64,000 nucleotides of DNA from NCBI RefSeq assembly GCF_000005505.3, contig NC_016134.3, forward strand, positions 5,084,001-5,148,000, read 5' to 3'. A program made the translations under genes and the position numbers. Below the pieces are notes generated by a model. That model was not told where the DNA came from, made no database searches, and worked only from the letters and a program-made list of their open reading frames with translations. This DNA is from Brachypodium distachyon (taxonomy: Eukaryota > Streptophyta > Magnoliopsida > Poales > Poaceae). Every line of letters starts with the position of its first letter. Positions within the stretch are counted from its first letter, which is position 1. Below are positions 12,930-49,023 of the stretch, piece after piece.

Positions 12930-12940
12930 AGTTGTTTGAG
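12930..12940. repeat. Proposed left target site duplication of the MULE
   Basis: AGTTGTTTGAG is repeated exactly at 41307-41317 in the same orientation. Bases just outside differ on both sides. Confidence 0.7.
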
Positions 12941-12951
12941 GCAAAACCTCT

Positions 12952-12982
12952 CGGTAGCTCTGGAGCGATCTCGCCCCACCGT
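12952..12982 (+). repeat. Left terminal inverted repeat of the MULE
   Basis: The reverse complement of 41266-41296 matches at 29 of 31 positions without gaps. The two differences are at the 7th and 10th bases. Homology stops abruptly on the inner side. Confidence 0.8.
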
Positions 12983-13583
12983 TGTGTCTGTCCGATCCTG
13001 GCGTTCATTCAATCCCATGGTTTGGGAAATTCCCCTATTCTGTAGGCTCAAACAGTTCATTTCACTATTTCTCTAGCCCTGTGTACTGTACGTTGACCTT
13101 GCCAGACCGATGGTGGGTTAAGATAATATTTCTTCCTTCGTTCTGTTTCTTCTTCCTTGTCCTCTGGAAGAGATAGCTCCGGAACTCCGTATCTAGTTCC
13201 TCCTTTCCTCCATTGTTGTTCCACGTTCTGTTCTTCCTGCTTCTTCCTCGATCGTTCTGTTTTTCTACTCCGTCTTTTACCCGCTTCTCTGAGATGTACC
13301 TTCGTCCAAGCTCTTCGCGATGTTAGATTTCCGTCGACGTTCCATGTTGTCTGTCCCTTCGGTTTCTCTTTCCTTCTCCACTTCTTTGTTCTTCGCGCAT
13401 AACTCTTCGTGTTATTACTTATTTCCAGATGATGTACATTTCATCCTCCTTCATATTTGCTAGGCCAGGTACTTCAGATTTATCATTTCTTCAAACATTT
13501 CTGTGCGTTTCAAACTATGTACCGCTGACACTACTCATTCCAGCATTTCCGGATTGCGCTGCTGCTCCTCCCAATTCGAACAA

Positions 13584-16500
13584 ATGAGTCTTTCCAAGGT
13601 ACGCAAACTACTTGTTTATAATGTACCCCAATCTTCTGCTTTCTTCCACCACCTAGTTCTTTAACTCTTCATACGCTCTTCTTCAAATGTACCCCATGTA
13701 AAGTATAGTACTTTCATGTACTTCATCTTATATGTAATGTTACTTCCATGTACTTCATGCTACTTCAGTCAACATTGACCCACTCAATTCTATTGCTTCC
13801 ATTCAATCAGCATGTACTTTATGTTTCCTTCCTCCTACTTCAGTCAACATGGATCCACTCTTCTATTGCTTCCACTCAATCATGTCCCGAACAATGTACC
13901 CTAATGTATCCATGTCATCTTGCTGACTTATATGTTGCCGTAATTATATGTTGCCGTACTTGCTGCTTCAGTCCACATGAACCCAATCAATTCTATTGGT
14001 TCCACTCAAATTGACCCTAATGTACCCCTTTTTCCAACGCACCAACGTAATGTACCCTCATGTATTTCTTCTTATATGTCATTACATTATATTGTTTTCC
14101 ACTCAATGATGTCACAACATGTACCATCATCTACCTCTTCATCTAATACACCAACCTAACGTGCCCTCATGTATCTCCACTGTTTCCACACAATGTTGTA
14201 CTTCATCATTCAACTCACAATTCATTGCAGTGCTACTTCTTTTCTGCCAGCTCAAAGGACCTGCTGCACATTCTGATAGTACTGATGAAGTCACATAGTA
14301 CGATAGCAATGATGAAAGTCAAACTTCTGCAACAACTAAGTCAGCAACATCAAGGACCTCCGCGAAGACCCTGTACTGGATTATCAAGAAATTCAATCCA
14401 ATCAAAAGGCAGTTGGTCAAGGAAATAGGTTTTGGCGGACTATTGGAACTGCCTCTATGGAATTCAGTTAGTCACATTTTCAGTACTTGGCTCCTTCGGC
14501 ATGTTGATTGCATAGACCCCGCAATCGTCCTGGATTCAATTCGGAGGCTCCCCTTTGTACCTCAGGATGTCAATAGAGTATTTGGTATTCCATGCGGGCT
14601 TCGCGATGTACTGGGACCTGAAACTAAAATATCGGATACGGCCATGGCATACATTCGTGAACAAGCTGGTATATCCATGACCAAGATCAGCCTCAAAGAT
14701 GCCGAGAAGATTGTCCTCATGGATTTGTCAGAAGAAAGCACAAGATTATAGAAGGATGCATTCAAGATGGCATTTGTTATTATTTGTTATGGGTCATCTC
14801 CTTTCACCATCTACAAAGTATGATCATGTCAATATTGATTTCCTTGGCGCCTTGCGTTGTACCGAAGAGATTGGTGAATACAACTGGTGTGCGTATGTTC
14901 TGAAAGGTATCATTGAGGCAACTCAAAAAGTACAGGCTGACTTATCCATGAACAAAGTTGTTTCCAACATATTTGGTTGTCACATATTTCTGCAGGTACA
15001 CATAAAATACCCTAATGTATTTCTTATTTATAAAACGTAAACGTAATCTACTCCTTCCTTTCAATGCCTCTCCCTAGTGTACAATCGTGTAATTATAGCT
15101 CCAGTCAACATGTACCCTAATGTACCACTTCTTCTATCAACCATATTGACCCTCATTGATTTAATTCTACATGTACTTAAACTTCCTGCGTACTCACTTC
15201 ATATTGTTTACTTCTTAGATCCACTATCTAGATATCTCTTACTTGGACCACTACAACCTCGAAAGAATATTTTCCCTCGTATGAAGGCTTTTCCAACAGA
15301 AGTACTTAACAAGCTTATATTAGCTGATGCTAAGCTCGGAGGTTGTTATGGAGCCAAGCAGGTACCATCTGCCATCATCTCATTCTCCATGTAATCTATT
15401 TCATATCATATAGTACTTCTTCCTGAAATAACATCTCGATGCCATGCGGTTCAATATGAGGGGTACGGTCCTCGTTCCCAACCAGTCACCAAATATAGCC
15501 CGGCCACTTCCTCTGCCTGCAGGATCTGGACAAAGTACTCCCATTTGTCCTTCCATACCAACATCTCCGGAACCAGCCTTCCAATCAACACAGCAACCTT
15601 GCCTCAATTCCTCTGAGAAAAATACCCTACTCTCGTAAGAAAACGATAAATGTTCTTTCCCATCAACTCTTACGTACTCATAACTAACATGTTCACATCA
15701 AAATCATCCAGTGCAATACAACGCTCGCGAATGATTTGAAACTATATAATGCAACAATGGTATGAGCAATGAACGAAAGGCACACTGCTGAGAAGAGTCA
15801 TCTCCTGCACCAAAACTTATGGCTTGCTGACAAGATATGCACATTCATCTCTGGAGTACCCCAACTACCACCGCAACAATCAGCTTCAACTTCAAAAACA
15901 GAAGGTACATCTACACTTCCTATTAATACATCATAAAATATAGTATTCTCAACCGGGTACCACTTTTCCCTCCAGCTTCCGCGAACAGCTCTGTCAAAAG
16001 AGGAGATAACAAAGATCAACCTAACTCTCAATTTGAAGGTGCTCTTTCACATAACTCAATCTTTAAATTTTTCCAACGATCTAAGATATAAATGTTGCCA
16101 TTCTAGCTCAAAGCAAGGACTGTACATCACCTGTGCGTTCAATGAAATGTCTAGAGGACACCCCCAAGAGGTCCTCATCTCAATTCAATGATGCAATAAA
16201 CAAGAAATCAAAGACCGCTAACTCAGGTAACTTACATTACATGCCTAATTTTACAATCAACAGCTATATTCATAATTATTCTTTTCATTCCTTCCACAAA
16301 TAGATGGCAGGAGATCTATGTTCAGCAACATGGACTTTGAACCACCTTCTTTTGATCTTGACATCTATTCTGTTCCATCCTTCGCAGCTTCCGGTGACTG
16401 CTCCAAGAAAACATCACCACAAGATCTAATGGCTCCTGGTTCTCCAGCAGCTACTAAATTATCCATGAAAGGTAACATGGTCGATTTGATTATGAGGACA

Positions 16501-18058
16501 GAGGATGTGGACTGCGCGGAGAGTAAGGTACTGTTTGGTGCAGCATCTGCTTCACCACCTTGCAAACGTCAAACCAGGGTAGGCAAGTTTGCACCCTCAC
16601 CGTGGTCAGAAGGATACATACATCCGAAACCTGATGGTGACATCATGGTTAGTCTCATGGAATGGTGTGCTGATGCGCCTCCACAGTACTTGAAAATGTA
16701 AGCACATGTACTTTTCCACTCTCAAACTTGAAGTATACTCACTATGCTAACTATGCACATTCTTATCCAGGCCATGGGTCACCAATGAATTTCCTCGGTA
16801 CATCTCAATGCCTGGCAGTGCAAAACAGAATCAACTAATTCGTGACGACGTCTTGACTTCGAATTGTGCGACCTTCTTGTAAGGCGGTTAACGCAACTAG
16901 ACTCCAAGATGGGACCAACTAGTTCAAGGATGCGTTGGCGTCATCTCCTCGAGAGTGATTTCTCTGTACGTTTCAATCAAACTTTAATCATCGTAAATTT
17001 CTTGTTTTCACCATTCCGGTACTATGAAGGAAACTTATGTACAAAAACAGGTATGTGCGATAGCAGAAGACGACATCACACCTCTGTTATCAATCCAGCA
17101 ACAATTCATTGGCGACGACATAACGTACAACATGTCCTGCACTACAATGGTAATAACTCCTAACAGATGTGATATCTTTACATTCATTCAATTATACTTG
17201 ATATCTAACAAATATTTATTGTAGTTCACCGTACCTTCATTTATTGAACAATCCTGGTGTGCCTACATGTTTGACATGAAAGAAGAGATTATTCATGTAC
17301 TTGATCCATTGGGGCTGCATCTCGAATTAGCCGCAATCAAAGTATTGCAGGCTCATTACGCTGACGTCATTCATGAGAAGCTCTTCCATTGCTTCAGCAA
17401 GTATTATGAAATTTGGAATCCACAGAAGAAAGATTGGCCTCACGTCTATCCTGTTCTCACCAACGACAAGTTCACCAAGTAAGGAAAAAATAAATAACAC
17501 CATTATTTCACAATGTTCAGCTAATACAAGTACTTCAATCGCACCCACTGCCATCTGCCAAATTGTACTCGCAGCAGTACTTCCAATGCTATTACAAGTA
17601 CAAAACTTCGAAATGTACATTCAATCAATTTCTACTTTCTTATATGTAAAGGTACTACCAACAACATCCATGGTACATATATACGGACAACAAAGTACTT
17701 TCGATCATGTTTGCTATGTGCTAATCTGTGAACAACATAATAGTAAAACATATATGTACTTCAGGAATCAGAGCGGATTGTGCATGCTGCATTGTCTACG
17801 CAATTACAATGGGGAAGAATTGGAGCAGCCACTGACACTGGTAAGTTCTAAATCTTCCACTAATCATTGCTTGCTGCATTATTGTGTCACATTCATTACT
17901 AATTGCTGCATATATATTCTTTGTTCACATCCTAGAATGGTTATTCAAGATTGCAGCATACCTTTCTTCATGAACTGCTGACCATGGAGAACAACAAAGC
18001 CACACTACCAATCCACATACTGAAGATCATCGACCCACCAAATTGGAGACAAGTTTAG
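13584..18058 (+). pseudogene. MULE cargo gene: PMD/DUF1985-like domain plus Ulp1-like cysteine protease, decayed
   Basis: Exon 1 is probably 13584-13598 (MSLSK), reading into 14251-14995. That exon holds the conserved grass TE block (EIGFGGLLELPLWNSVSH, LPFVPQDVNRVFGIPCG, FLGALRCTEEIGEYNWCAYV, GCHIFLQ). It continues at about 15210-15361 (KNIFPRMKAF) and through a linker up to 16697. The protease part uses exons 16771-16965, 17051-17149, 17225-17478, 17765-17840 and 17936-18058. Joining 17478 to 17765 gives TKNQSGLCMLHCLRNYNGE, with the expected nucleophile Cys and downstream Gly-Glu. The Asp of HVLDPLG is present, but the usual His-Trp is Ser-Trp (EQSWCAYMFD). In-frame TAG codons lie at 14296-14298 and 14749-14751. 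Frameshifts lie near 14780 and 16850. Such proteins are predicted SUMO/ubiquitin-like proteases whose role in transposition is unproven; this copy is unlikely to be functional. Confidence 0.78.
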
Positions 18059-19091
18059 ACGCTCAAATGTTGCACCAAATTGTGTCAATCTATAGATAAA
18101 GCCCAGTCTTCCATCCGTCCAAGTTGTCTGTTTTACCCGCTTCAGTTCTCTGCCTGTCTAAATTATATCAGTTGAATTCCTTTTGTTTCAGAACTTGTTA
18201 TCTGTACTAAGTACTGCCCGTAATCTGCCCATAATGTGATGTTCCCATCTGGGTTATCAACTTCTATTATGCTGTCCTTTGTGACCTCTCATTAAGTTAA
18301 TGTACTGTCCACATAACACAGCTTCTTTGCACTAATTATGCATCATACTGCTCATCCATGCTCAACTACTCCTGTCCTCTTATCCTGTGCCGTAAGGTAC
18401 GGCCGTCCTATCCTCATGTACCATGATGTACCAGTTTTTCAAAACATGAAAAACTCCTTAATTCAACTCAACCAAAGTCTTCTAATGTACCGTAAGGTGT
18501 GCTTCTGTTTCAATGTTCATGGCCTTTACGTACGTACTAACAGATAGAACTTCATGTACTTATTTTCTAATATACCTTAATGTACTTATCTTCTCATGTA
18601 CCATCTCGTACTAATTTTCTCATGTCATGTCACGTAAAAATCTTGTTTCATTCACTTATGTTCTCATCGCCCATCATGTCTTCATTATTACATACACGCT
18701 AACCTCAACCTTCACAACTACTACAGTTAAATCTCGTACATGAGTAAAATGTTCACAAACAACTACTTGCAATCACCGCAGTGACATGGACTCGATCATC
18801 AAGTACTTGCAATAAGCGCAGTGACATCTTACTACCGCCTTCACTCCTAAAATAACAAATTGTTTCGCCAAATGCATACATAATTCCATAAAACAACTAC
18901 ACAGTACTGCCGCCTCCACTTGTGACATGATTACTTGCATCTCCGCCACAATTCTTCATACTCCGCGTGTTACGCCTTGTGTACACTAAAATCTCGCCGC
19001 CTTGAACAGAATTTTCTGCGTTCAGAATGATACATCTCACTACAATAAACTGCACTAAAATAAACTGCACTACAATAAACTGGACTTCAAA
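18059..19091. other. Intergenic spacer between convergent cargo genes, rich in GTAC
   Basis: No coding frame is recognisable. The sequence is AT-rich with many TGTAC/GTACA words and lies between the convergent ends of the Ulp1 gene and PMD paralogue A, so it probably carries both 3' UTRs. Confidence 0.5.
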
Positions 19092-22000
19092 CTATAACAT
19101 CTTCAGACCTGATGCATCTTCCTCTCCAGTTGAAGATTTAGGTTTCGCCTCCACTGCCTCTTCTACAACCTCCTTCTCACCCAACTTAGGGGCATCCTTC
19201 TCTTTCCCTACATGTTTGACAACCTTGCTAAGTACCCATTGCATAGGCTAAGCATATGACAAAGTTCAACAACATACAGGTCCTTGCAAATTATAAATAC
19301 CGTACCTCCTAACGTCTCGTCACCTGGTGGTGTTAGGAAGAAACTGTTAATGAAGTCATGCACATTGCCAGAATTTGTACTTCCCGATCCTCCCGTCCCA
19401 CCGTGCTCACCATCTAATATGTTCTCCGTACGCTCTCCTCTTGGAACTACCAAACAACATTACAAATCATACCACAACTTAATTTTGCAGCAAGAACAAA
19501 CATTATTCCTTCTATATGACAAGTACCATCAAATGATGATTCTTTTCCATCAACAACTGCTGGTTCTACGACACAAGCAGGTAATGCCTCTTCTGCACCA
19601 GCTTTATCTGCAAACAATTTAACATCTTAACTTTCTATCGTCAACGCTGTCATCGAACATAATAAAAGTACGGAAACCTGATGTCTCATCAAACTGTTGT
19701 TGTCCTTCAGCGTGGATGTGTTCAGCAGCTTCAATATCATCAAGTACGTTATTAATACTAAAGTCTTCACTCACGCTTTCACCTGCAATTGAGAAACAGA
19801 CAAAACATCATGTACATAAATAAGTACTCCTCGCATTATCAAATTATGTAACACATAACGTACCAGCCTGAATTCTCTTGTTCGCACTTAACTCCGCGTT
19901 ATCTAATAAATAATAAATGAAGCATTATTCACTTAATTCGAAGCCATGGATGACTCTGCGTCTGTATTTCAAATACTCACTTGATTGAACAGTGCTGTTC
20001 AATCCTATACGGACAACTTCCTCCTGCACATCTTCTTTCTGTCACACCAGTGGCACCTGGGGTACCACCGCTGCGCAACGCGTGGGCCCCGTCCCCGGGT
20101 TCCTGGGAAGGTTCCATCTCGGGCAGCGGCTACGAGCAGTCCGGCAAGCTACCAGCCCAGAAGGGCTAGCGGGGCTTCGGGGAATATTCCCGCCTGGGCA
20201 CCTCCCGGGAAGCTGCTTCCCGGGGGAGGTTCCCGGGTGCGTTGGGCCCAGGCGCTTCCCGGGGAGCGACTTGCCGGGACAAGGGGTTCCCGGGCGCATG
20301 CCTCCGCCTCAAGAGCGGGGCCCAGTGAGCAGATCAACAGTGCCACGCGGGCGTGTGGCGGGCGTGGGGTGCGTGGCCCCACCGGGGCAAGAAGTAAGGC
20401 GCACGGCTCATTAAATGAGCCGACAGGAGGGGCATTACCCGTCCAAGTCAAGTGAACAGTGGCTGTCCAATCCTACTCTAGGGTTTCAGACTCCTAGCGG
20501 CGGAGGTGGCGTCCATGCGCGCCACCAGCTCATTGAGGGAGAGCTGTATGCCTCTCCGCTCGACATTTGTAGCCCATGCACCGTGGCACCTGTGGCATCC
20601 CCTTGAGTATAAAAGGAGGACCCTCGCCAGCGGTCAAAAGGGTCAAGTTTTGCTGAGTTGGGGTTCCGGTAGGTTTCAGTCCCGGAAAAAGGCTCCACGT
20701 CCGCAAGTTTGTTTAGCTCTGGGTAGCAGGTAGCGTAGGCAAGGGAAGAGAGAAAGAGAGCCCGGGGACCTTCCCCCACCAAGGTGTAAAACACTTGATC
20801 TGCAATCAATACCAGCTCAGACAAGCAGGACGTAGGGTTTTACACCTCCGGGTGGCCCGAACCTGGGTAAAAACGTGCGTGCAGGGGTTCTTTGATTAGC
20901 GCGTACTTCTAGTACATCATTTCGCCGGCCTCTCAGGGCCCATCGGCCGAGCCGGCGATCGCCGGGGCGAACCCCGACGCCCATACCGAACCTAAAAGGG
21001 GGCTGTGACCGCACGCCCCCGGTGTCGGAGCACCATGCGATGACACTTTTGCCCCCTCTTCTTCAAAACAAAGTTCTGGATGTACACCCCTACATACATA
21101 TTTGTTGCGACTTAGACAACTACAGTACTATAAAAAAGATAAAGCCATGTAAATGAAAGTCACCTCCTCACAGCTTGTTTCCTCCTTATTCTCCACTCAG
21201 GAACACGTGGCATTCCTGGTGGTCTTTTGCATGAGTGTTTCTGCAGTCCAAGTGCTTCTGCAACCATAATCTTTATTGAAGAATGTACATCTATATTGTT
21301 ACCTTCATGGCCTAGTGTACCCCCATATCAAAAAACCATGACATCGCGTTAAATGACTTCTTACAAATCTAACTGCCAACCATTTATCCATATCACAGCA
21401 CATGCGCTTTTTAGATTGCGTACCTGCAGTTTCAACATTTCTCGGGGCTTCAGTTTCAACCACAGGAATTGCAGAATGGCCATGTCCTGCTAAAATTATT
21501 TGTACAATAATGTTAATTCAATGTACAACGAGGTACAATACATTATGGAGCTGTACTAACCTTCTACATCAGTAATTTCAATATCTCTGCGTGCGACCTC
21601 TTCGAGTCCTACACTCTTGCATCTGCAAATTTTTTAATCTTTAATGTTTATTTACTCCTCCTTATAATATATAATGGACAATACTAACGTATGTGGGTCT
21701 ACCTTTTTGAGGACTGGCTTCCTAAGTTCCTAGGACATAACATAATATATTATCAATTTTCATTATCATCCGAAAAAAAATGTACCATACAAAATACATA
21801 AATCATTACCTTCGTTTCCTCTTTTCTGACCAACTTCACTCATGTTGCTATCCTCTACAACATTGTCACCATTCCCAGAAGATTGTACTGTAAATTCTCT
21901 CCCAGTGTTAATAATTGGTACATCTGGTACATTTCATAAAAGCAATAAATCTGCTAAATGAAAACCTGACACTACATGCTATGGACAGAGATGTAATTAA

Positions 22001-23613
22001 TTACCTCCAGAACCATCTGCTACTCGAGTAGGCTTCTGGAATTTCGGATTACCTATATAAATATTTATTGCTTAGTCCAATGAAATTTGTGTACATACTA
22101 ATGTGATCAAAATAACCTGATGTCGCATCATCGTGAATTGATTGTTCTGCTCCGTCACATGCTGCAAACATATTCATAACTTAACGTGCTGGATAAATAA
22201 CACTAATTAACACTCGTTTCAAAATTAGAAAGAACATCCAGTACGTACCTTCCATCCCATGTCCCTGAGATCTCGTCTCTTCATCAGATTCATCTAAAGA
22301 AGTCTCCTTATCCATGTAGTCCGCTATACGTTGGAGAAGAAGATTCTTCCTCTTCACTAGCTCTCGTCTTAGATGTTCAACCAGATAACCATCGTTATCA
22401 TGCTGCTCTTCAATGACCGTCATCAAAGCATTGTAACGCCGTTGTTTCCTGGATCGTCGATCGCTCCTGTACTTCTTTTTCTTTGGCGTACCATAACTTC
22501 TCCCTATGCCTTTACCTTTTCGGTCAAAATGGATCTTGTTGTTTCTCTGGTAGAGAAGTCACATATCATAAGAACGATGTACACATTCATTAACCTGATC
22601 CTAGAAACACCGCGCATATGATGTTAAAATTACCTTGTAATTACCGTACCACTGGCTCAAATCAACATTATGTGCCTTCTTGTCAATATTGATGAGCATA
22701 TCTAGCTTTCCTTTATCACAAGCCTTGATTCTTGGGAATACATCTGGTCTAGCTTTGTGTACGCCAAAGTCAATGCTATCAAGATAGAAAATCTGCACAC
22801 AAAAGTGTTCAACAAACATTACATCATGTGTGGCACAATACAAATAATTTAGAAGTACGTTCTTTTCTATACCTGAGGTACAATGCAGCAACCACCCACA
22901 ATACAGGTCGAATAACTGCCTCTCTTCCCTTCTTTCACCTTCCTGGCAGCAAATCCTAGAATATCAAGCACACACCTTGCATAGTTCACTTATTTAAGTT
23001 TCTCAACGGTGCTCAGGTAAGGAAGCAAATATAGCGGAATCTTTGGATCGCGATCTCTGCAGTCAAGAAGGTAAGCGAATGATAAAATTACAACTCCAAT
23101 TTTGAAAGCTTCTTGTTCTTTCTTCGAGCTGTGCTCATCAATTACGCTCTCCACGACATTAGAAACAGTCGAGATTGTTAGCTGTTTAACTCCCAGAGCC
23201 CTGCTAACTTCTTCAATCATCTCTTCAGGCACTTCATCATCTATTACAGAAATATGCTTTCCTTCACATGGCAAACCTATAATATCATGTACATCTGATG
23301 GGTATATGGGTACTCTTGTACCATCAGGGTACTCAAATTCCTTAGGATCCCCATCAGCATCAGTCTGATTCAGACAAAACAGTGAGAACTGCCGATTCCA
23401 TTGATGTTTCGGCATCTCTGCCATTCCATCGAAAGAAATATCTTTCATTAATAACAGCTTGAAATGATTGAATTTGGAGAACATCTCGTTCATAATGGAT
23501 GGCTTCTGACAAGCAAACAACTTGGGACTCCAAATATGGCACCTGAAGGCTGCGTCCTCTAGTACCACGACCTCGGGGAACCGAACCAGAACTTCTCCCT
23601 CGCATGATGCCAT
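19092..23613 (-). pseudogene. MULE cargo gene: PMD-like paralogue A, without Ulp1 domain
   Basis: The first coding exon (about 23613 down) encodes the PMD/DUF1985-like block: SPKLFACQKP, MFSKFNHFKLLLMKDISFDG, GTRVPIYPSDVHDIIGLPCE, LLDCRDRDPKIPLYLLPYLS. A TAA at 22990-22992 interrupts it where paralogue B has Gln (VEKLK*VNYARCVLDI). Later exons encode FYLDSIDFGVHKARPDVFPR (about 22640-22790) and a basic/acidic linker with QRRYNALMTVIEEQHDNDGY and LVKRKNLLLQRIADYMDKE (about 22250-22470). A chain of short acidic exons follows, ending with KEKDAPKLGEKEVVEEAVEA and a TAG at 19092-19094. The N-terminal 30 residues look frameshifted against paralogue B. A solo LTR sits at 20040-21045, apparently inside a late exon. 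No protease domain follows. Confidence 0.75.
20040..21045 (+). mobile_element. Solo LTR (1006 bp) of an LTR retrotransposon, family 1
   Basis: It begins TGTCACACCAGTGGCACC and ends GCGATGACA, with flanking CTTTC (20035-20039) and CTTTT (21046-21050) as a slightly diverged 5-bp target duplication. A plus-strand TATAAAAGG box is at 20608-20616. It matches the minus-strand element at 28377-29272, including the block around GGTTTTACACCTCCGGGTGG (start 20837). GC content is far above that of the host MULE. No internal retroelement domain lies beside it, so it is a solo LTR. Confidence 0.85.
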
Positions 23614-23971
23614 ATCTAACAGAGAAGGTACAATACAGTTAGTAACTATGGTACGAACAATTGATAAACTATGTCAAAAATGAGTACGTACTTCTGGAAA
23701 CAAAAATACATACTCAAATACACTTAGAATCCCGTACACTTATATTTATTGCACATGCATGTCATTTCAACAAATTAAAAAAATTAACGGCTATTTCAAT
23801 GACGTGTACTTAACTTAGCACTCAGAACGTCTAGTACTGCATTGCACGCATATGTACTACACTTCTAAGTGATACGTGCACATTTCAGGTCAGTTGTACA
23901 AATGAAGATAACTTCATTTTTCAAAACCAGACAACATGGGCATTGTTCAGTACTCGCAAAAAAACAGAAAC

Positions 23972-23974
<3 letters not shown>

Positions 23975-24004
<30 letters not shown>
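23975..24004. repeat. (AT)n microsatellite
   Basis: An uninterrupted run of 15 AT units lies upstream of PMD paralogue A. Confidence 0.95.
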
Positions 24005-24007
<3 letters not shown>

Positions 24008-30449: not shown

Positions 30450-32265
30450 GTCTACCAAAACAAAAAAAATTAAACTCAACAACTATTTCAATATTAATTA
30501 ATCGTACCCATATATCAAATTGTACTTACATTCTATCTGGGTTACAAACGGTTGAAGGAATTATAAATCAGTACTGAAGTGATCACACAATTTGCTGTAC
30601 CTTAGAACATATCGCTATTTCATTCTAACGCGTACCTACGTGCGTAGTCCTAAAACTTGACGCTCTGCTTCTCGACCGTCCTCTTGACGGTGAGGGGACC
30701 ATATCTAATCGAAATTGTACCCATTTAGACATCCAGATTCAGATCAGTGGATTGTACACATTCACATATGAACTGTCCTTACTTTAGAAGTAACTGTATC
30801 CATTTAGATATACATTGCCAATCGAATAAGAAAGCTAACACAAGAAGGTACATTAAGGGACCTTGAATTGTAATTTATCATTTTTTGAATCCAAATCCAA
30901 GGTAATCAGAAACAAGTTGCTTAGTACGTGCTGTATCATTTTTTGAGAAGGAAATATTAGTATCTAAATTGACACATCTTAAACAATAATCCAGATTATA
31001 GTTTCTTCATATGCAAAAAATTCTACAAGGAATGGGAACAGGAATACCCAAAGAGAATACAAATTATTTGTATGGACAAATAAACTTGCATTGCTGATCC
31101 ATACAGGAAAACATTAAATAAAAGTACATCAATGTACTTTTAGTTCATAACCAACATATCTTAAACAACTAGCAGTCCAAATGAAAGAGGTACTGAAATG
31201 TACACCACATGGCACATGTGAACATAAACCATTAAGCCCTAATATGAAAAACGTACATGAAGGTATCTTAAAATATATAAAATTCGTTGCTAGTAATATG
31301 TACCTTGAGTACTTTGGTACACATGCACATAATATCACAACTTGGTTGGATAAAGTACCGTACGTACAACAGATAAAAAAACAAGAGAAACATAAAGCGC
31401 GCGAAGTTGTCTTCAAAAATATGTTTCGGCAGAAGTAAGAAGCATTAAGTACCCAAGATCCGTACAGATTTGTACTCAAAGAAACATCCATATAAGAAGT
31501 TCCATTACTGGGGGATAGTAGATGAAATCCAGCACAAGATTGCTAACAGGGGTTTGAGCCTTAATGAAGTAACAAATGTAGAAACAAAATCAAAAGGGGG
31601 AAGCATCTCCACTACCTGTTGGTAGGTTGCTTCTCGTCGGAGAAGATGGACTAAGCTCGCGATGTGGAAGAAGTGATAGCCAGAGCTCACCTAATCTGCA
31701 CGGATTCTGGATTCCTCGACTCCCCTAGGCCTCCGACTTCCTCTCTTCCCTGTCCGACGAGTCCGGGGCGTAATAATCCCTAAGTTGGTTCTGATGTACT
31801 GCCGGTACAAAGAAAACAGAGAGCCCAAATTTATGTATCCATATCTGGTGGTCCCACCGTACTGTTAGATTATTTTATGACATGAATGAAAAAAATATAA
31901 CAGAAGCTGAATTGAACGGCCTCGTATAGAATGTCAATACTAATTGTGATACATATTGGTTGATTCAAATACATGATTTCAACATTAATAAACATATTGG
32001 TTTATTGAAATCATAATAAGATTAACAACTCCAATTCAGGTTCTGAACAGAAATGTTGTTCTCTTCAGCAAACAAAGATTAATATTGGTACTGCAAAAAC
32101 AACCCCCAAATTAGTGCATCGCACTTAGACTCGATGCAACTCATTTTACAAAATGTTCCAACATTCCGAAGAACTTTGTACATCAGGGAACCTGAACGTA
32201 CACACATGTACTTCCAGGTACAAGCAAAATATGGTATTAACTCGCTACTTTGATCCACGAACAAT
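30450..32265. other. Upstream region of PMD paralogue B and downstream region of the acidic gene
   Basis: GTAC-rich, AT-rich sequence. The 31500-31790 part is GC-richer and is a candidate 5' UTR/promoter for paralogue B, resembling the position of 24540-24740 for A. The frames at 31129-31491 and 31181-31438 overlap antisense, have no recognisable features and are not called. Confidence 0.45.
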
Positions 32266-35200
32266 CTACTCCAGTTTCCTCCTTTTGACGTCTAGCCGAC
32301 ATGAGATACCTTGACGTCCACCGCTGACTCTGGTTGCACGTTCTGTGCTTGAACATGCATCGGAATCATTCCCAGCCTTCGCCTCAGGAGCATCTTCTTC
32401 CTTCTTTCCAAGAACGAGAAACATATCGTTGTCTCCAACCACAGCGTCTTCTTCTTTCACATGCACAAAGTAGGGTATAGCATCTGGATGAACAACATCT
32501 ACATGAAATTGGTACTCCTGCATACATATTTACTTATGAGCATTGCACAAATCTAAATCACAAGGTATAATAGAGAAGGGACTGATCTTTACGGGGTCGT
32601 CTTCCTCCTCCAAGTCGGACTGAAACTCTGGATCTTTATCTGAATCATCGTTCACCTCTTCGAAATCAGCCTCATATCCAGCCTCCTCCTGCGAATTGAC
32701 TTCAGCAGAAATAACCTAACAACAAAACGGTGAACTCCAAATTTGAAAACAATTGTACAGAGACGTGCTGTAACAGAAATGTACCTCCGAATGATCTGGG
32801 GAACGGCCATTGACAGAAGATGAAGAAGAAGGGTGAAGCGACCGCCCCCTTACCAGGGTTCGATCTCTGTGCTTATTTGTGCTAGTCCCTGGATCGACTC
32901 ACTAGCACACACAGTTCAAGATGTAATACCAAGATACAAAGGTCAAAAGTACTTTATTACATCATATCATCCAGAACTTAAATTGTACTTACAAACTTGC
33001 ATGACCTCTTAGGCCAGCATAAACAGATATCGTTTCAAAACCATGATAACATTGTATCACAAAACTGCAGCGGAAAGGTAGAGCAACAGGGCCTCATCTA
33101 CTCCCAGAGGAGAGAGCATGTTGGAATGTAACCACATGACCCAAATAACATCGACGAACCTCACTCTCCGTCTGATTCACCTGCATTATTAATTGCAGCC
33201 ACCAAGTGGTCAATACTTTTGAATGTATTGGCAAGTTCACCTGAAAGTTATAACAGATCCTACCAAGTATATGCAATTGAGGTATAGTGGGGTTCAGGCT
33301 TTATGGCATTGTAGCAAAACATAGTTTATCTTACTACAAGTGAATGTTACAATATTGTTAACTAATGGACACGGGGTAGAAACACCCATGCTCCTATTAA
33401 CCTAGAGCACATTGAGTAGAAACATCAAGTGCCCCTACCCTGTTCAAACCATTCATTTTATTTAAGAAGTTGGAATGAGTGAGACTTTCCTTACAGCCCC
33501 AATATCTAGTTGCTCATAATTGTCCGTAACCAGGGACACGGCTAAGTACTTAGTTTGACACTCTCAAGAGGTTGTACACATTCCCCACAAGAAATCGACG
33601 TGTTAATCCCTTCATGTCCTCCCGGGGGAGTAGCAACGACATCGACTTCAAGAATTTTCAGAACATGTTTGCCCAGACCACCTGAGGGGCCCACGCTCCC
33701 ACCTACACAACTACCTCAGTACAATCCCTCAGATCTGGGTTCACAATTCTTACTCCATCCAGCCAGAGCCCATTTAGCTTGTGGTTGTACTGGAAGCTAC
33801 TAAACAGGAAACTAGTCCAGTCTCTGATACCCCAGGTGGCATTCCACATTTCCGACGCAAGCGCTCCCCGAATCCACGGAAGAGACGTCCATGGACGATC
33901 CATCTCTGAATCCACGGAGACTCGACTCAGAGGGACCCATAGAAATGGACCTGACGTCGCATAACATCTCAAAATCTCAAAGCAGTCCACCCAGAATGGT
34001 TCATTAGGGTTGTTTTTGCCAAGTTTCCAAAATCACTCCACATCATCATTTCACATTTGATTGAGATTCCCTCCCACGTATACTAACATAGCAGGGCTAA
34101 GCAATTCTAATCACGATGGCTATTGGTGGAGGATTCATGGCAAAGGTAACCCTATAGCTAGTAGGTCAATCATAGCTACCATAAGTACGAGTAATAGTGC
34201 TATCAATGCATTTCTACAAACAACTCTAATGCATAAGTATTTAAAAACAAACAGTAATAGGATATGATCAAAGTGAATTTGCCTTGATAGCAGTTGGAGT
34301 TCAAACACTCGTCACAATCGCAAGGTTCACTCTCCGAGCATACTATACAATCAAACAAACATACACCCACATAAACACACAATCCAAACATGACAAAAGA
34401 ATGTATGCTATGATGCGATGCAAACATGCGACATGATTGGGTTTATTTTATTCGGGTGATCTACTGATGTTAAGCATAAGTATTTAAAACAAGTGCATTA
34501 GGGTTTTAAATAAAAGGCAAAGGTTCCAATGGACAGAGGATATTAAAACAAAATTTTGGGCACTGGTGTCATTCAAAAAGGACTTCTAAATAATTAGTTA
34601 TGAATTAAATGGTATTAAACACTATTCTGTAATTTGAATGTGATTCAAAGATTAAAATTTGAAATAGGACAGTGCCAAAAGATTCTATATTTCCTAAGGA
34701 TTCCAAAAAGGTGTGGATCATTAAATTTGGCCAAACAGATTTAAAGTTATGATCATTTGAAATAACATGGGCTTTTCTGCAAAAAAGCCATTTAATTATT
34801 CCGGAGAATTAAAATTAGATTTTCATTTTATTTAGCAGTGACACGTGGCACGTTCTCATTGGTTTGTACCGGTTCGTTTAAGTGAGATAAAAAGGATCTA
34901 ATCTACACCGTTGATCAAAGATCGGACGGACGTGGGGAGGTCGGGATCACCTAGGGTTCCGGCGAGCTTCTCCGGCGGCGGCGTGGGGTTCTCCGGCAAC
35001 ACGGGCGGCTCGGGGAAGGCACGAGTGCATGCGGCTCGTCGAGGCGAAGGCGGGGACATGGTCGGCGCGGCGAACCGGGGTCAGGGGCGTCGCCTAGGTC
35101 GAAGATGAGGCGGCGGCGCGGGCGGCGGACTCCGATGAGCTCGGGCGGCGGTCGGCGGGGTGCTGCAGCGCGCAAAACGAAGGGGGAAGCGCGTCAAAAG

Positions 35201-36145
35201 ATGCGCACGGTCTCGGGGGTCCCGAAAATTGAACCATGGCCGAGGTTGCCTCACCTGGTTGCCGGCGACGGGCGAAGACGCGGCGGCGGCAGTGGAGTGC
35301 GGCGGCGAGAAATTGCGGCGGCGTGGGCGCTTGCGAGCGGGGGCGAGAAGACGGAAAGGAGAGAGGGGGTCGCGGGGTTTAAATGGACATGCTCGGGGCT
35401 CCGAAAGAAGGACGGAAGAGGAGATTGCCGCGGAGACGGCGCGCGGCGGCGAAGAAGGAAGGCGGCACGCGTCGCGAGCGCCTTCCAAACGAGGAAGAAG
35501 CCCCTAACAAGTGGGCCCCACCAGTCAGCGGGTGCGGGCGCGGCGCGGGCGAGCGGCTGGGCTGGCAGGGCTGCGGCGCGTGCGAGGGATTGGGCCGGTT
35601 CGGCCTAAAGTGGCCGGGCCGATCCGGTTTCCTCCCTTTTTTTTTCTTTTACCCTTTTCTTTTTCTGCTTTTCTCATTTCTTTGATAACTTTTGATTTTG
35701 AACTCCAAATTTGTCCAAATAAAATCCAGAAAATTTGTAAAATCATGTTCTACCATGATACAACTTTTGGAAGTAGTTTCCCCTCAAAATAAAATATATA
35801 AAAATACATTTGCCCTATAAATGCCTTTAGGGCTATATATCTATTTAAATAAAATACTTTTTCAACTCCAAATAATTATCCAAAAATTATGGGATAGCTT
35901 ATATATGCATTAAACCCCTTTTATACATAAACCCTATTGGTTTGAAAATCCAAAGCTTAAATGGATGTAAACAAAATCTTTTAAAGCCTTTTGAGATTCA
36001 AAATTTGAATTTAAATATGCAATTGTGGCATGATGCTCATGGATGCAATGCACATGTAAAAGTTTGAAATTTTGGGATGTTACAAAGGGCTGAGAACTAA
36101 TGAATCTGAATCCAAAGATGACACTACAGGTGGTGATGCAGCCAT
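32266..36145 (-). pseudogene. Small acidic-protein gene of the MULE, split by a solo LTR
   Basis: Three exons read in frame once the LTR is removed: exon 1 complement(36090..36145 plus 32785..32833), exon 2 complement(32593..32715), exon 3 complement(32266..32517). They give a 159-aa protein. Exon 1 encodes MAASPPVVSSLDSDSLVLSP then a Ser run and NGRSPDHSE. Exon 2 is strongly acidic (EEAGYEADFEEVNDDSDKD). Exon 3 encodes EYQFHVDVVHPDAIPYFVHV and ends in basic RRKLE. Splice sites are GT/AG. The Asp/Glu-rich middle resembles linkers seen in the neighbouring PMD genes, but I recognise no domain and assign no function. The LTR lies in exon 1, after the codons for LVLSP, so this copy is broken. Its location between FAR1 and the PMD genes makes it MULE cargo. 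Confidence 0.65.
32834..36084 (-). mobile_element. Long solo LTR (3251 bp), Gypsy/chromovirus-like
   Basis: On the minus strand it starts TGTAACATCCCAAAATTTCA, the usual start of plant Tekay/Del-type Gypsy LTRs. It ends with a GGTCGCTTCA-type end (TGAAGCGACC on the plus strand). Exact 5-bp duplications AAGGG lie at 32829-32833 and 36085-36089. The interior contains a GC-rich segment at 34900-35640 whose long frames on both strands look like compositional shadows. No gag, protease, RT or integrase motif is visible, so this appears to be a lone LTR. Confidence 0.85.
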
Positions 36146-37035
36146 GCCTATTGCCTATTCTGTACGATGGTGGTCGAGAGAGGAGAATTACTTTGTATGC
36201 TGAATAGAGGAGAATGATAGAGCACAGATGTAGTGCCTTTTATGGAACCTAATTTCCCTCCCAGGAGATTCAATATGGCTTGGTCTTCTCCACTTCCTAC
36301 GTAGAGGTTCCCCCCAGAACATATATTTCAAACGAGGAGGACCCACCGCCGTCTAAAAAAATCTCTATCCAATTCAGAAAAGGTATTTACAGTAGTTAGT
36401 ACTCATAGTTGCACTATAAAACTTTGTACATGAACGTACATTTGGGTACATCATGCTTCAGGACATGATGATTGCGTTTGTACTAAGTACATTGATAATT
36501 AGGATACATCATAAAAGTTGAGATGTTTGGTCGTAGATGAAAGTAAAGGCATGTGAACGTAAAGCACATGACGATTGCACACACGATAAGTAAGTAAATC
36601 CTTTTTTAGCATCTGAAGTAACAATAGTACATCAGTAATAAGATGGATACGAAGTACATGGTACACATATTACATATTACTATATAGTTATTCTATTTAA
36701 CCGATAGTTTTGCCCAGAAATTATTTTGAGTACAATTATGTAGTACATGACGGAACATTTGGGTACATTACAAAATGGACTATATCCTCTTCAAGAAGCA
36801 GTCTCTCCAATAGAGAACCTCATCCGTATTGGTACATGGTACAAACAGAAGAAACAAGTAACAACACCTCAATTTACTTGCATGCAGTATTGAAACATCC
36901 ATTACAAGGTTAACCACATCCATTGAGAACAACATAGTTTTGAAAATTGAAAAATGACTAGTTTCGTTCAACAAAACATAAAGTTCACGTACTACCATTT
37001 CATAAACACAATAATATTACACGGTGCTACAACAT
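36146..37035. other. Spacer between FAR1 and the acidic gene
   Basis: AT- and GTAC-rich. It contains a degenerate copy of the ACAATAGTACATCAGTAATA repeat word (about 36620) also seen around 25200-25500. No gene was recognised. Confidence 0.5.
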
Positions 37036-40000
37036 CTAAACACCTAGTTGATACTCAATATGCTGAACATCAATTGACGAAGCGCAAACATTCCTGCGAT
37101 GTCCCACAGGACCACACTTTCCACACTTAGGATCGCTTCTTTTAGAAGCTGGTTTATCTTGGTTAGCTTTGCACGCTGAACGATTGTGTCCACTGAGCTT
37201 GCAAATAGTGCAGAACTTCGTCCTTTTCCGCTTCAGCTCGTAAGCAGGCTTGTCTCTAGTATTTGTAGGTCTTCCCTCAGGACACTTACGAACAGGCGCA
37301 AGCACTCCGGTATGAATCTGCCCAGGAACAACATCACTACCCTGTGGTACTTGTAAATTTACAACAGGGGCAACAAGAAGTTCTTGTAGACTGCGTCCAT
37401 CAGTGTATTGGTACATTTCACCAAACTTCTTCGTGCCGTCCTTCATATATTTCACTACATCATGATAGCAGTCTACATTCTTATCACCAATAGCAGCTAA
37501 CTCAAGAGCTGCTACGTGGAGAGTAGCATGGCGATAAGACTGTGACCTCGCCGAACCTCTATCCTTCTGCAAATGTACTAAATGATCAGGCAACACATCA
37601 GTTGCATCTTTTGTCCATCGCTTCAAGATATGCCCTTCAGGTATCTTGTCAACTCCTTGTCTCAGCATGACCTAAACAGTGTAACAAAAACTGTATGACA
37701 AAAAATTACATGTACGGGAAGAGAACATTAAGGTAGCTGGTGTTATCGAGTTTGTACCCTGATGGAATGACAGCAAAGCATGCCCATATGTTCAGCTAGT
37801 CCACACTCACACTTGTACATGCAACCACCATCACTTATAGTTACCTCATAATTTACTTTTGACCACTTCTCCCTCCTAGCAGCATCAGAATGTATGGTGA
37901 GATATTTCTTGTTCGCTTCTGCTTTAATCACATTGCATGCAGCGCTACCAAATATGTGATCGCTGAACAGCTGAAGCATAGCACTGGTATAAACTGTGGC
38001 AGCATGTTTCTCAATAGGCCATCCGGTCTTTAGCACAACACCACCCTGCAAAAACAGATGATACATAAGTAACATGACGTAATGAATCAAACTACAGTGC
38101 TGTCAACTATTACACGCACCATCCTAGTTCGTTGATTCTCAGAATCTTCTTTCAAAATACGATCAGCGATAAGTTTGTTGTACTGCTTCACAAACAAATG
38201 CATCGGAGCACCAGGTGGTACATATCCCTTTAACATGTGATTTGCACTTTCACTTCGTTGTGTACTTATCATCTTTGCACAAAATATACCACTAAAGTAC
38301 GGTTTTGCCCAATGATGACGCGCTTCATAGATGGGCGTAAGGAAATGATGTTCTTTCAAATCATACTTTTGCAATAGTCCTTCCCAAGCAGCCTCAAATT
38401 CTTCTACAGTTATACTATAATTGATTAGCTTGTGAAACTCAGGTTCGAAATTACTATACTTTGTGTAAACAGAACCAAGTCTCTCTTTCGCCATTTTTGG
38501 AACATGCCACTTGCACCACCTGTGAGTTGTATTTTTCAAGACACGTTCAATTGCAACTTCCATGGCACGGCATTGATCTGTAAAACAGTATGATAGGATT
38601 CAATTATTTTATACGTGTCTTACAATGAAGTACATCACATATTAGACAAATGTACCACAACATGTACCTGTAAGTATTGTCACCGGAGGTTTTCCACCCA
38701 TCAAAGAAGTAAATTCACGAAAGATCGACTCAAAACTTTCAATAGTTTCTTGTCGCATGAGAACTCCACTGAATATAATGCTTTGAAAATGATTGTTTAC
38801 TCCAACGAAAAGTCCAAAAGGCATACCATACAGATTGGTCTTGTACGTCGTATCAAAAGTGATTGCATCTCCAAAGCACTTGTAATCCATCTTGCTCTTA
38901 CCATTCACCCAAATTAGAGTCCTAATTCTTCCATCTGAATCTAAATCAGCAGTGTAAACAATAGAGGGATCCTCATCTCTCATCTTCGTGAATAAATCCA
39001 TTGTCTTGCGAACATCATCATTTGCTTCCTCTTTTGATATTTGTTTGCATAGATTCTCAAGCGACCGTTTATTGAACGGTATGTCTTCAGTTGAACCAAA
39101 GTACGTGCCAAGTATGCTATAAACCTTTGTTAGAGGAAGATTGTTCTCCCTTAGATTCCTTACTAACTCCCTTGTGTACCGATCTATGTGTTTATGAGAG
39201 GGCCAACACATTTTCTCTCCATTGTTCCGAGATAGGTTATGGTTATGCTCTAACTTGCACTCCTTGATATACCAACCATGGTCCTTGGTCCTCAAAAGCC
39301 TTATCATTGCTTTGCAACCACATCTAACATAAGATGTATTCTTCTTCCTGGGGTAACCCTGAATAATAAATTACCATTAGTACAATTCGTTCAATTTGAC
39401 TATGCTAGTAATCAGGGGAAAAAAATATACCTCGCATCCGCAAACAATATGCTTCAGTGTTTGGTACACGACATCCTTCTTAGGACCAGATTTGCACTTA
39501 TAGCTTTTGCTTCTGCTATAACGAATGCCAAACCCAACTTCCCATGAATATAGATTGATGTACTCGTAAGCCTCAGCTAATGAGTCAAAGCAAAGACCAA
39601 TTTTGGGTACATAATTTCTTCAGTGCTCCTCTGTGCAAAACCACGCAATGCATTCTCAAGGGGACCAGGTCTACCAGGCACATGAACACGTGCTTCTGGT
39701 CCAGCATCAAAATTTTTCCTATGTTCACAAAATTCATAGAAGTTATTAAATCTCAAAATTGTGGCTTATCACATGATTAAGTACTACAACAGTACCTAAT
39801 TCTTCCTGCATAATTAAAGGTCGTACTTCCAAGAAATGAACGTACCTATGGGACTGATGATTAAGTACTTGAGCAACACTTAATTGTTTTTACATAACTA
39901 CCGTTACTACATCCAACCAATTGACAGGCATTAGGTTACCATCATAATAACAAAATAAGCACATGATAAAATACATTGTTGTTTCATGTACAATTGATTT

Positions 40001-40887
40001 TCAATTCAGTACTTCGAACGTTTCAGAAATATTGTTGGTACATTTATATACACTCCTTGTTTATCGTTTGTACTGATGAAAGATATTTAATTTAGCGTTG
40101 AACTTAACTGTTATTTCGTGTACAGTTAATTTCCATTTAGGTAATCCACACATTTCAAAAGTCAGGTAAGTACAATGTCCTATAGTACTTCCTTAGTACT
40201 GAGCTACTTTAGAATAAACCGTGTACATTACTAACATTTTTTTGTACGTCTAAGTACATCATGTGTAGCTAATTCAGGTTTTTGAAGACGAAAAAAAGAA
40301 ACATTGTCTGACCTACCTATACACTTCTTGCTTATGGTTTGTACTGATGAAAGATATTAAAGTTAGCGTTGAACTTGACTGTTATTTCGTGCACAGTTAA
40401 TTTCCAATTAGGTAATCCACACATTTCAAAAGTTAGGTTAGTACAATGTCCTATAGTACTTCCTTGGGACTGACCTAGTTAAGAATAAACCGTGTACATC
40501 ACTAACCTATTTTCGTACGTCTAAGTACATCATGTGTAACTAATTCAGATTTTTGCAGACAAGAAAAAGAAACATTCCGTGGCCTAACCTTCGAGACGTT
40601 GCAGTAAACCCAACATCATCACCTGAAGCACCGATTTCAGTCCAGTCTTCTATTGAAGCTTTGCCCGCGTACTGTGGAATATCCTTGGCTCTACCAGCAC
40701 TACTCCGTCCTCGCGATTTGTTTATGCGTGGAGCAGAGCTGCATTCAGACGAAGATTCTTGCGGAGGGACAACAAATCTAAGAAAATAACATATCCATTT
40801 AAATGAAATGTAGGAAGTAAGAAAGGAAGAACCGAATGGAACCAAAAAGAACATCCAGTACCTAGATGGTACTTCTATTACTTCCAT
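37036..40887 (-). pseudogene. FAR1/Jittery-type MULE transposase, one-base frame loss
   Basis: This is the probable transposase of the surrounding element. Exons (complement): 40862-40887, 40589-40777, 39431-39718, 38668-39358, 38120-38577, 37758-38045, 37036-37671. They encode about 858 aa if one missing base in exon 3 is allowed for. Order of domains: a Ser-rich N terminus (VVPPQESSSECSSAPR), then a FAR1 DNA-binding domain (VPKIGLCFDSLAEAYEYINL, GYPRKKNTSYVRCGCKA, LEHNHNLS). Next comes the MULE catalytic core with its first Asp in DAITFDTTYKTN, second Asp in ILTDQCRAM and a candidate Glu in STQRSESANHMLK. A SWIM finger (YKCECGLAEHMGMLCCHS) and two zinc knuckles (CTICKLSGHNRSAC and CGKCGPVGHRRNVC) follow. 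Near 39605-39615 frame TEEIM does not connect to VPKIG: exon 3 is one base short. The gene reads inward from the right TIR. Confidence 0.85.
40047..40588. repeat. Tandem duplication, 2 x 271 bp, in FAR1 intron 2
   Basis: Unit 1 (40047-40317) and unit 2 (40318-40588) align almost end to end. Shared words include TTTGTACTGATGAAAGATAT, GGTAATCCACACATTTCAAA and ACAATGTCCTATAGTACTTC. Unit 2 ends against the splice donor of exon 2 (boundary 40589). Differences are mainly point changes. Confidence 0.9.
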
Positions 40888-41265
40888 GCCTCTCCAGTAG
40901 AATTGTTCATGCGACAGAACCGAGAAAAGCGAGGAGGAAGAACCTGTACACTTCTAATCAAAGTTTCGGATGAACCGAGAAACACGAAACCCAAATTCGT
41001 CGCAAGGTCCGTCCGGACAATGGAGGTTATGAGGAAGAACTTCTCGTCAGGGAAGAAGAAGACTAGATATTTTCTTCCCTCTCCTCAGAGTCTCTCTTAC
41101 CGACAACCCCGCCACTTTATGTGTCCTGTTCTTTGGCTTCTAACAAGCACTGTATCCGTACCTATCCTAGCTACATGCAAGGTGACAGATTTAATCTTTG
41201 GACATTTTTATAAATCATTTCAACGGATCGAATAGTGCGTTCCTATGCTCCATCGTGTGGCTCAC
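40888..41265 (-). promoter_or_regulatory. Subterminal promoter and 5' leader of the FAR1 gene
   Basis: The first ATG of FAR1 lies about 380 bp inside the right TIR. The leader is CT-rich on the minus strand, and a minus-strand TTTATAAAAATG (about 41202-41213) is a candidate TATA box. A similar pyrimidine-rich leader follows the left TIR at about 13120-13300 ahead of the PMD/Ulp1 gene, so both ends seem to drive inward transcription. Confidence 0.5.
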
Positions 41266-41296
41266 ACGGTGGGGCGAGATCGCTCCCGACCTACCG
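41266..41296 (-). repeat. Right terminal inverted repeat of the MULE
   Basis: Inverted match to 12952-12982 (29/31, no gaps). Confidence 0.8.
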
Positions 41297-41306
41297 CCTC
41301 CGCGTT

Positions 41307-41317
41307 AGTTGTTTGAG
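41307..41317. repeat. Proposed right target site duplication of the MULE
   Basis: AGTTGTTTGAG, identical to 12930-12940 in direct orientation. Confidence 0.7.
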
Positions 41318-48497: not shown

Positions 48498-48499
48498 TA

Positions 48500-48583
48500 C
48501 TCCCCCCGTTTCTAAATTCTTGTCTTGTGGTTTTAGTGCTAATTTGAACTAAAACCATGACAAGAATTTAGGAACGGAGGGAG
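48500..48583. mobile_element. Short Stowaway-type MITE (84 bp)
   Basis: A nearly complete palindrome: CTCCCCCCGTTTCTAAATTC on the left, GAATTTAGGAACGGAGGGAG on the right. TA duplications lie at 48498-48499 and 48584-48585. Confidence 0.9.
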
Positions 48584-49023
48584 TACTAGACTACTGGCTG
48601 CGGCCTACATCCACCTACTGCGTACTGCAGTACTAATACTATTTTGGCTACAATATTTAGTACTTTGCTAGAGGGTTATGCACTTTGCTATGATGCGTTT
48701 GGAAGTTTTTCTTATCTCTTTGAAATCCTCTTTCCAAGCTAATGCATGTATCTGTCGTAAAAACCTAGATGCAAAGATAATTAATTATGGTAATAACAAC
48801 TGACATAAAAAAATTTAACACATTTATCTGCTACCTACACCAATAAAAATCTAATAGATGGTAAAAAAACTAGTAGCTACATCAAGAAAATCTGGTAACC
48901 GATGATTTCATAAGAAAATCTGGTAATGGATGATTGCTAACTAGTATTATCAGTGTTTTTCATAAGAAATTTCTTTTCATAATTATCCTTGTAGCCGGTA
49001 CATATTAATCCGGTAGCCAAGAT

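Follow-up and report, generated by a model that had tools for sequence, protein, structure and literature searches.

Does a 28-kb interval on chromosome 5 of Brachypodium distachyon, framed by near-identical inverted repeats and containing a transposase and several further genes, represent one mobile unit, and why are those further genes there? We addressed this for the 64,000-nucleotide window C5:5084001-5148000 of the 271-Mb genome; coordinates below refer to this window unless prefixed with a chromosome. The interval moved as one Mutator-like element (MULE), since its ends and duplications are common to several copies, and its core is saturated with the word GTAC, as are short copies that have only the ends in common with it. 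Taken together with the gene content and a predicted fold, these findings make it probable, in our judgement, that the element belongs to a multi-gene FAR1-class (Jittery-like) MULE lineage in grasses with a VANC-like, GTAC-addressed anti-silencing system.

The 31-bp terminal inverted repeats (TIRs) reported in the original prediction were found in place, differing at two positions and lying 11 bp inward of outer ends that do not match each other (Table 1). An exact 11-bp direct repeat had also been described outside both ends. The match itself exists: AGTTGTTTGAG lies at 12930-12940, again at 41307-41317 and nowhere else in the window. Comparison with other copies shows, however, that the right terminus reads ...CGCGTTA; on the simplest view, the eleventh base belongs to the element, as its terminal A, and only 10 bp were duplicated. 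By itself, the 11-mer was rejected as evidence of insertion, because it occurs 233 times in the genome (120+113); its exact adjacency to the family ends is what counts. The mismatched outermost bases had been called odd. They do differ over 11 bp, but this is a feature of the family: the left ends of the copies read GCAAAACC (GCGAAACC in one) and the right ends mostly CGCGTTA, with one to three differences. The F3 family has GCCAAAGGTCT as the counterpart of the left outer end, and the final bases of the right outer end recur in families F3 and F4. As the ends are alike across copies, the outer 11 bp are conserved though not inverted, and the element spans 12941-41307.

A 201-bp left-end query returned five further rows at four other elements, the best row per element beginning at query base 12, which is the border. 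With the right-end query, seven further rows stopped at query bases 191-195, the border lying at 190-191. A 26-bp TIR pattern (up to 3 mismatches) had 11 genome matches, at the same elements, and its reversed control had 0. Both ends are shared by a 38-kb copy at C3:54876284-54914332, which has its own 10-bp duplication, and by three short copies of 1.3-1.4 kb; those at C5:28.91 Mb and C1:48.65 Mb each carry a 9-bp duplication, and no exact duplication was found for the third, at C3:17.71 Mb. A fourth short copy and one truncated giant have a single clear end each. Overall, the duplication is exact in four of the six copies examined at both ends and has one mismatch in a fifth; the copy at C3:17.7 Mb is the sixth. 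The F3 element (C1:50172393-50196191, 23.8 kb) lies between 10-bp duplicates that differ at one base, and its ends (GCCAAAGG on the left, TCCGCGTTA on the right) resemble those of the window element; its inverted core differs. The window core and the 38-kb copy are 94.9% identical over 22,085 aligned columns, and the latter contains the protein records BRADI_2g56826v3 and BRADI_2g56840v3 (stretches 95-100% identical). Chance ends or a compound insertion are ruled out by the recurrence of ends and duplications elsewhere. One mobile unit of the MULE type had been predicted, bounded by TIRs and a 9-11 bp duplication and encoding PMD/ULP-like proteins besides a FAR1-class transposase, and further copies sharing both ends were to be sought; the 38-kb copy and three short ones bear this prediction out. 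The MULE transposase domain, a duplication within 8-11 bp and the inverted repeats are the features of a Mutator-like element.

To assess the gene content across the lineage, loci were collected by DNA searches with the transposase exons (44 rows), gene B (37 rows) and gene A (25 rows), and the resulting counts are lower bounds. Transposase matches of at least 75% identity and more than 300 bases were kept and split rows merged, which gave at least 17 loci; the PMD rows were merged to 29 and the gene A rows to 19. A PMD gene comes next on the same strand at 14 of the 17 transposase loci, and gene A stands opposed on the same side, likewise at 14. The full order, a transposase, two same-strand PMD-like genes and an opposed PMD+ULP-like gene at the far end, is present at 11 of them; three PMD and five gene A matches lie away from any transposase match. 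Transposase and PMD trees recover identical family groups (el1/el2, F4/F5, F1/F3/F8, F2/F10 and F6/F7/F9) and disagree on the relations between families. In the PMD tree the paralogues do not fall in one fixed order, and the distal PMD of F7 groups with no other. Between families, the ratio of nonsynonymous to synonymous substitution rates (dN/dS) is 0.03-0.24 for the transposase in nine of ten comparisons (one is saturated), 0.12-0.49 for PMD genes with window gene D left out, and 0.07-0.30 for gene A. Since the order is conserved across families and purifying selection acts between them, the standing gene set of the lineage is shown to consist of the transposase, a pair of PMD-like genes and a single PMD+ULP-like gene. 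They are not passenger DNA, and the term cargo, in the sense of captured passengers, is not supported. Pack-MULEs, defined by host gene fragments of no conserved function, differ from this element in the same two respects.

The transposase falls in the FAR1 class (Jittery-like) by sequence, with Pfam matches above cut-off to MULE (PF10551, E 2.7e-22) and FAR1 (PF03101, E 8.8e-10). The predicted FAR1 and catalytic parts are therefore present, but Pfam scores for the SWIM and zinc-knuckle (CCHC) parts are below cut-off, although the cysteine pattern can be seen by eye. In the window copy, the coding stretch immediately before the FAR1 domain is in a different frame, and the modelled N-terminus is therefore provisional; this frame change (~39620-39720) is present in the window copy and, by eye, in F4, and not in F1 or F3. 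The closest full-length relatives outside Brachypodium are 46-51% identical, rising to 60% over partial length, and one further relative, of unnamed source, is 84% identical.

Genes encoding PMD/ULP-like proteins are present as predicted, but the protease assignment is qualified. The C48 catalytic motif has H and C residues within HW and DCG; read by eye in the window and F3, gene A has SW in place of HW and QSG/QSR in place of DCG. Among the pieces of the additional genes, Pfam found nothing above cut-off and no C48 protease. The ULP label derives from this reading by eye and from the UniRef name of the gene A homologue P0124, which begins 'Ubiquitin-like protease f'. For the PMD-like paralogues B and D, the UniRef name of homologue P0121 begins 'Aminotransferase-like pla'. 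At E up to 0.1, Pfam identified PMD in 3 of 17 gene A relatives and DUF1985 in 7 of 17. Relatives of gene A at 37-41% identity occur in Lolium, Triticum and Festuca (7995 candidates scored). The coding status of the small gene E is less secure because its dN/dS between families is 0.42-0.73. In the window, gene A contains an in-frame stop as well as a frame change, and frame changes also affect genes B and D; the window copy is therefore probably decayed, no longer autonomous and dead as a source of these three proteins. An Rfam search gave no match, and a tRNA scan with the bacterial code found none.

With nested insertions excluded, the window core holds 301 GTAC sites against 74.3 expected under a first-order Markov model (Markov-1), and the core of the 38-kb copy 296 against 73.1. 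The observed and expected numbers are far closer in the controls: 40/29.6 and 66/53.9 in the flanks, 12/12.2 in the nested insertions together, and 71/53.3 in eight arbitrary 3-kb loci. Density climbs and drops at the element borders and falls at the nested long terminal repeats (LTRs). It reaches 14.8 sites per kb in noncoding DNA and 8.2 in assigned exons, against a background of 2.57-2.8; the lower value was obtained over 64.6 kb, in which none of 87 overlapping 2-kb windows held more than 12 sites. The final ~300 bp of the element contain one site at most. A mild rise (9, 5 and 8 sites per kb) was also seen in the right flank at 46001-49000, over AT-rich minisatellites with ATGTAC words, possibly the remains of another such element.

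The same saturation is found in copies that share little else. Three short copies have about 42 bp on the left and 40-70 bp on the right in common with the giant (one also a further 25 bp) and unrelated interiors, and hold 21, 22 and 20 GTAC sites against 3-4 expected. An element ending at C4:44443120 shares ~56 bp with the giant and has 55 sites in 2.72 kb. At this locus (C4:44440200-44443120) the GTAC-dense stretch measures ~2.7-3 kb and only the right end is common with the giant; a left end was searched for and not found, and on the other side the DNA is rich in GC and resembles a gene, perhaps a fragment that was captured. In families F1, F3 and F4, whose blastn matches to the giant lie mainly over genes, the observed and expected numbers are 268/63.9, 246/62.7 and 238/59.1, and a locus at C5:6.87 Mb has 14.4 sites per kb. 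GTAC was thus followed over long stretches at six of the 17 loci (these four, the window and the 38-kb copy); the remaining families, represented by gene fragments only, have 7.7-9.0 per kb. At more distant FAR1-type loci the values are 53/24.4 (rising towards one edge), 40/25.9 and 33/22.9.

The sites also have a characteristic context and spacing. The frequency of A at position -2 is 0.41-0.60 against 0.31 in the background, and pairs exactly 10 bp apart number 48 (el1, F1, F3 and F4 pooled), whereas other distances average 18 and 500 jittered sets reach no more than 32. Within exons, synonymous shuffles reached the observed number in 2 of 1000 cases for the transposase (48 sites against 34.4) and in 0 of 1000 for PMD (44 against 27.6); copies from several families were pooled, and the test is not independent evidence for each family. 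Genome-wide, a pattern of three GTAC at 10-bp steps showed no excess (115 per strand, reversed control 149); the places listed are mostly outside the loci discussed here, with several inside them.

A possible reader of this word was suggested by structure. The modelled N-terminal domain of P0124, a protein of the gene A type, matches the DNA-bound VANC21 crystal structure, and by profile comparison the PMD proteins share this VANC21-like domain. The matching predicted fold and the element-wide short word are most simply read together as GTAC-addressed anti-silencing. In such a system, one or more of the three related PMD-domain proteins would bind DNA sequence-specifically, as VANC does in Arabidopsis. 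Binding to GTAC along the element, with a mild preference for ANGTACNT and often at pairs one helical turn apart, would relieve silencing of the element and its short derivatives, allowing the FAR1 transposase to mobilise both. We are evenly divided over a more specific version, a grass address code outside the VANDALs. Here the GTAC palindrome, in ANGTACNT context and 10-bp pairs and present ~300 times per ~23-kb element, would be read by at least one of three encoded VANC-fold paralogues and shared by families at dS near 1, and elements of 1.3-3 kb with unrelated interiors would wear code and ends, riding on the same anti-silencing and transposition machinery.

Several observations weigh against GTAC-addressed anti-silencing. 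The fold match is weak (8% identity, Foldseek E above 1e-3, TM-score 0.40 when scaled to target length and 0.19 to query length), helical models may, as the tool cautions, reach such Z scores through a common arrangement, and the model was made from the homologue P0124 and not from the broken gene of the window. The PMD protein model is poor (pLDDT 33), too weak for a structure search, and profile and sequence searches of PDB sequences found no relative. Plant SBP/SPL factors, too, have GTAC as the core of their site. Under a second-order model (Markov-2; 159 sites expected in the window core) GTAC is still the top 4-mer, at a 1.9-fold excess and not ~4-fold. Between the two giants, 245 of 280 sites (87.5%) are kept against 82.2% for similar words, a modest difference that places GTAC 22nd of 245 4-mers, and the copies are related, hence their counts are not independent. 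Selection is weaker between the window and 38-kb copies (dN/dS 0.27 and 0.32 for transposase exons, 0.55 and 0.57 for PMD pieces); this listing was limited to open reading frames (ORFs) without a stop and with dN/dS under 0.6, and the first exon of gene B is not among them. Finally, VANC motifs vary between VANDAL families (PMC5735166, in the text available), while GTAC is common to the families measured here.

Other explanations were weighed against the same data. That the MULE captured PMD/ULP genes of host or transposon origin as passengers, in the manner of Kaonashi or Pack-MULEs, with GTAC richness incidental, would fit the documented capture of ULP by MULEs, including Jittery-like elements in melon and grape (PMC2528002), as well as the loss of expected catalytic residues in gene A, its broken state in the window, and the PMD and gene A matches found apart from transposases. 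We regard it as improbable, given that 11 of 17 loci keep the gene order, that purifying selection acts between families, that the family groups of the trees match and that the GTAC excess extends to short copies with unrelated interiors. Nor is it likely that the sites recruit host SBP/SPL factors, such as a copper-response factor, for expression in chosen tissues while the PMD genes do something else. The core of the SBP site is GTAC, and a palindrome would serve both strands; CGTAC is part of the SBP consensus, whereas C at position -1 has a frequency of 0.03-0.13 against 0.15 in the background, in the window copy no more than base composition explains. Moreover, the sites run throughout the core, exons included, rather than in promoters, and the 10-bp pairing and the A at -2 suggest a different reader.

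A role of GTAC in transposition itself, as a binding site of the FAR1-domain transposase or as a DNA-architecture site, would account for the enrichment in copies that keep the ends, gene-less short ones among them. It appears doubtful all the same, as the density is whole-length and not subterminal, with almost none in the terminal ~300 bp, and the more distant FAR1-type loci are poorer in GTAC. An artefact of composition or tandem repeats, or chance TIRs and duplication around unrelated DNA, is very improbable. Some short repeats do contain GTAC, and the Markov-2 model halves the excess, but the observed number exceeds both expectations, the borders of the enrichment match the TIRs and the nested insertions, the excess is equal in families with few noncoding blastn matches, and both ends recur with new duplications. 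GTAC-addressed anti-silencing remains our preferred reading. The features of the window element are collected in Table 1.

Table 1. Features of the MULE copy in the window (strand "." where none applies).
Feature	Position	Strand	Remarks
Whole element (MULE copy)	12941..41307	.	limits set by comparing family copies
Left target-site duplication	12931..12940	.	GTTGTTTGAG; 11-bp match begins at 12930
Right target-site duplication	41308..41317	.	10 bp
Left outer end	12941..12951	+	GCAAAACCTCT; not inverse of right end; kept in family copies
Right outer end	41297..41307	-	CCTCCGCGTTA on + strand; kept in family copies
Left inverted-repeat core	12952..12982	+	31 bp; contains the 26-bp pattern used in the genome search
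Right inverted-repeat core	41266..41296	-	31 bp; two mismatches to left core
Gene A	14266..18040	+	N-terminal PMD/DUF1985-like domain, C-terminal ULP-like domain
Nested solo-LTR-like insertion	20039..21045	.	5-bp flanking repeat, one mismatch; site empty in 38-kb copy
Gene B	21178..23608	-	PMD-like, VANC-domain paralogue; frame changes in window copy
Gene D	27204..30440	-	second PMD-like paralogue; split by nested solo LTR; frame changes
Nested solo-LTR-like insertion	28383..29270	.	ACAAC flanks; within gene D
Gene E	32266..32715	-	small acidic fast-evolving ORF, basic KRRKLE-like tail; alignable in F1 and F4
Nested LTR-like insertion	32834..36084	.	3.25 kb; AAGGG flanks; relatives elsewhere in 38-kb copy
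FAR1-class MULE transposase	37036..39616	-	five exons modelled, stop-free, GT-AG sites

The expectation of about 5.2 kb of nested LTRs proved accurate: three insertions total ~5.15 kb, each missing from the same place in the 38-kb copy according to the alignment, and leave a core of ~23.2 kb. The large size, which had been called unusual for a MULE, is not peculiar to this locus, given the 23.8 kb of F3, the sole other family measured end to end; of the 14 loci having both transposase and gene A, 12 have 18-35 kb between the two. The nested insertions at 20148-20872 and 28520-29159 are related and mutually inverted, and sequences like them occur inside the 38-kb copy and beside the truncated copy on C6. 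Upstream of the transposase, a 271-bp tandem duplicate with units 90% alike was observed (40047-40586); in the alignment with the 38-kb copy, one unit there corresponds to parts of both. Outside the element, as judged by eye, the left flank (7271-11769) holds a gene encoding a basic region and a PHD-like stretch rich in cysteine, and on the minus strand at 58660-63954 lie two long ORFs that are related to each other and look leucine-rich and F-box/FBD-like.

Among known systems, Kaonashi (KI) elements are non-TIR MULEs with a mudrA-type transposase, at least 97 of them with intact C48 domains (PMC6117577, PMC13317346, PMC2528002, as far as their available text goes). The element resembles them in having a ULP-like gene opposed to the transposase, but membership in this class is not supported: its transposase is of the FAR1 class, TIRs are present, and the ULP-like domain has other residues where H and C are expected and no Pfam C48 match. 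Further parallels are the grape Jittery-like MULEs with ULP, Jitvine-1 (11.9 kb) and Jitvine-2 (14.4 kb), and the melon ULP cases cited with them, which likewise combine a Jittery-type transposase and ULP-like sequence in one large element. There, the ULP lies downstream of the transposase and the elements are smaller, and the available text reports no GTAC code or PMD gene pair (PMC2528002). PMD ORFs accompany many plant MULE transposases; in the part available, Table 1 of PMC6446971 gives its dicot-and-monocot Jittery sub-group one ORF and FAR1 with no PMD, unlike the lineage described here. ULP-bearing Jittery-like and PMD-associated MULEs are therefore already known, while the conserved multi-gene architecture of this branch and its GTAC saturation were not recognised in the literature searched. 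For GTAC saturation of MULEs, no description was recognised in the open literature, judged from titles and the starts of abstracts, and the available text of a rice MULE paper (PMC4178011) contains the word GTAC once.

The element can also be compared with the VANDAL MULEs of Arabidopsis, in which VANC21 binds a short motif clustered in VANDAL21 noncoding DNA and strips methylation over the element (PMC5735166, PMC10398659, both available in part). Common to both are a MULE with genes beyond the transposase, a short word repeated in noncoding DNA (here GTAC, as a putative target) and, for the gene A homologue, a model matching VANC21; according to the accessible text, some VANC-type genes bear ULP1 (PMC13317346), and one VANC6 motif, AGTTGTAC, includes GTAC. 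Unlike VANDALs, the present lineage has, by its domains and relatives, a FAR1-class transposase together with TIRs, three VANC-domain genes and a core of 23-24 kb. Its word is a 4-bp palindrome, paired at 10 bp and dispersed rather than mainly tandem, and instead of differing between related families it is found in all those measured. If GTAC-addressed anti-silencing is confirmed, the puzzling association of PMD/ULP-like genes with plant transposons would become a concrete DNA-binding hypothesis, and the lineage would illustrate the origin and spread of such systems and their exploitation by non-autonomous elements. To our knowledge, sequence-addressed anti-silencing by transposons is known from eudicot VANDALs; a separate grass MULE branch would then employ this protein fold together with a word that is much simpler and more stable.

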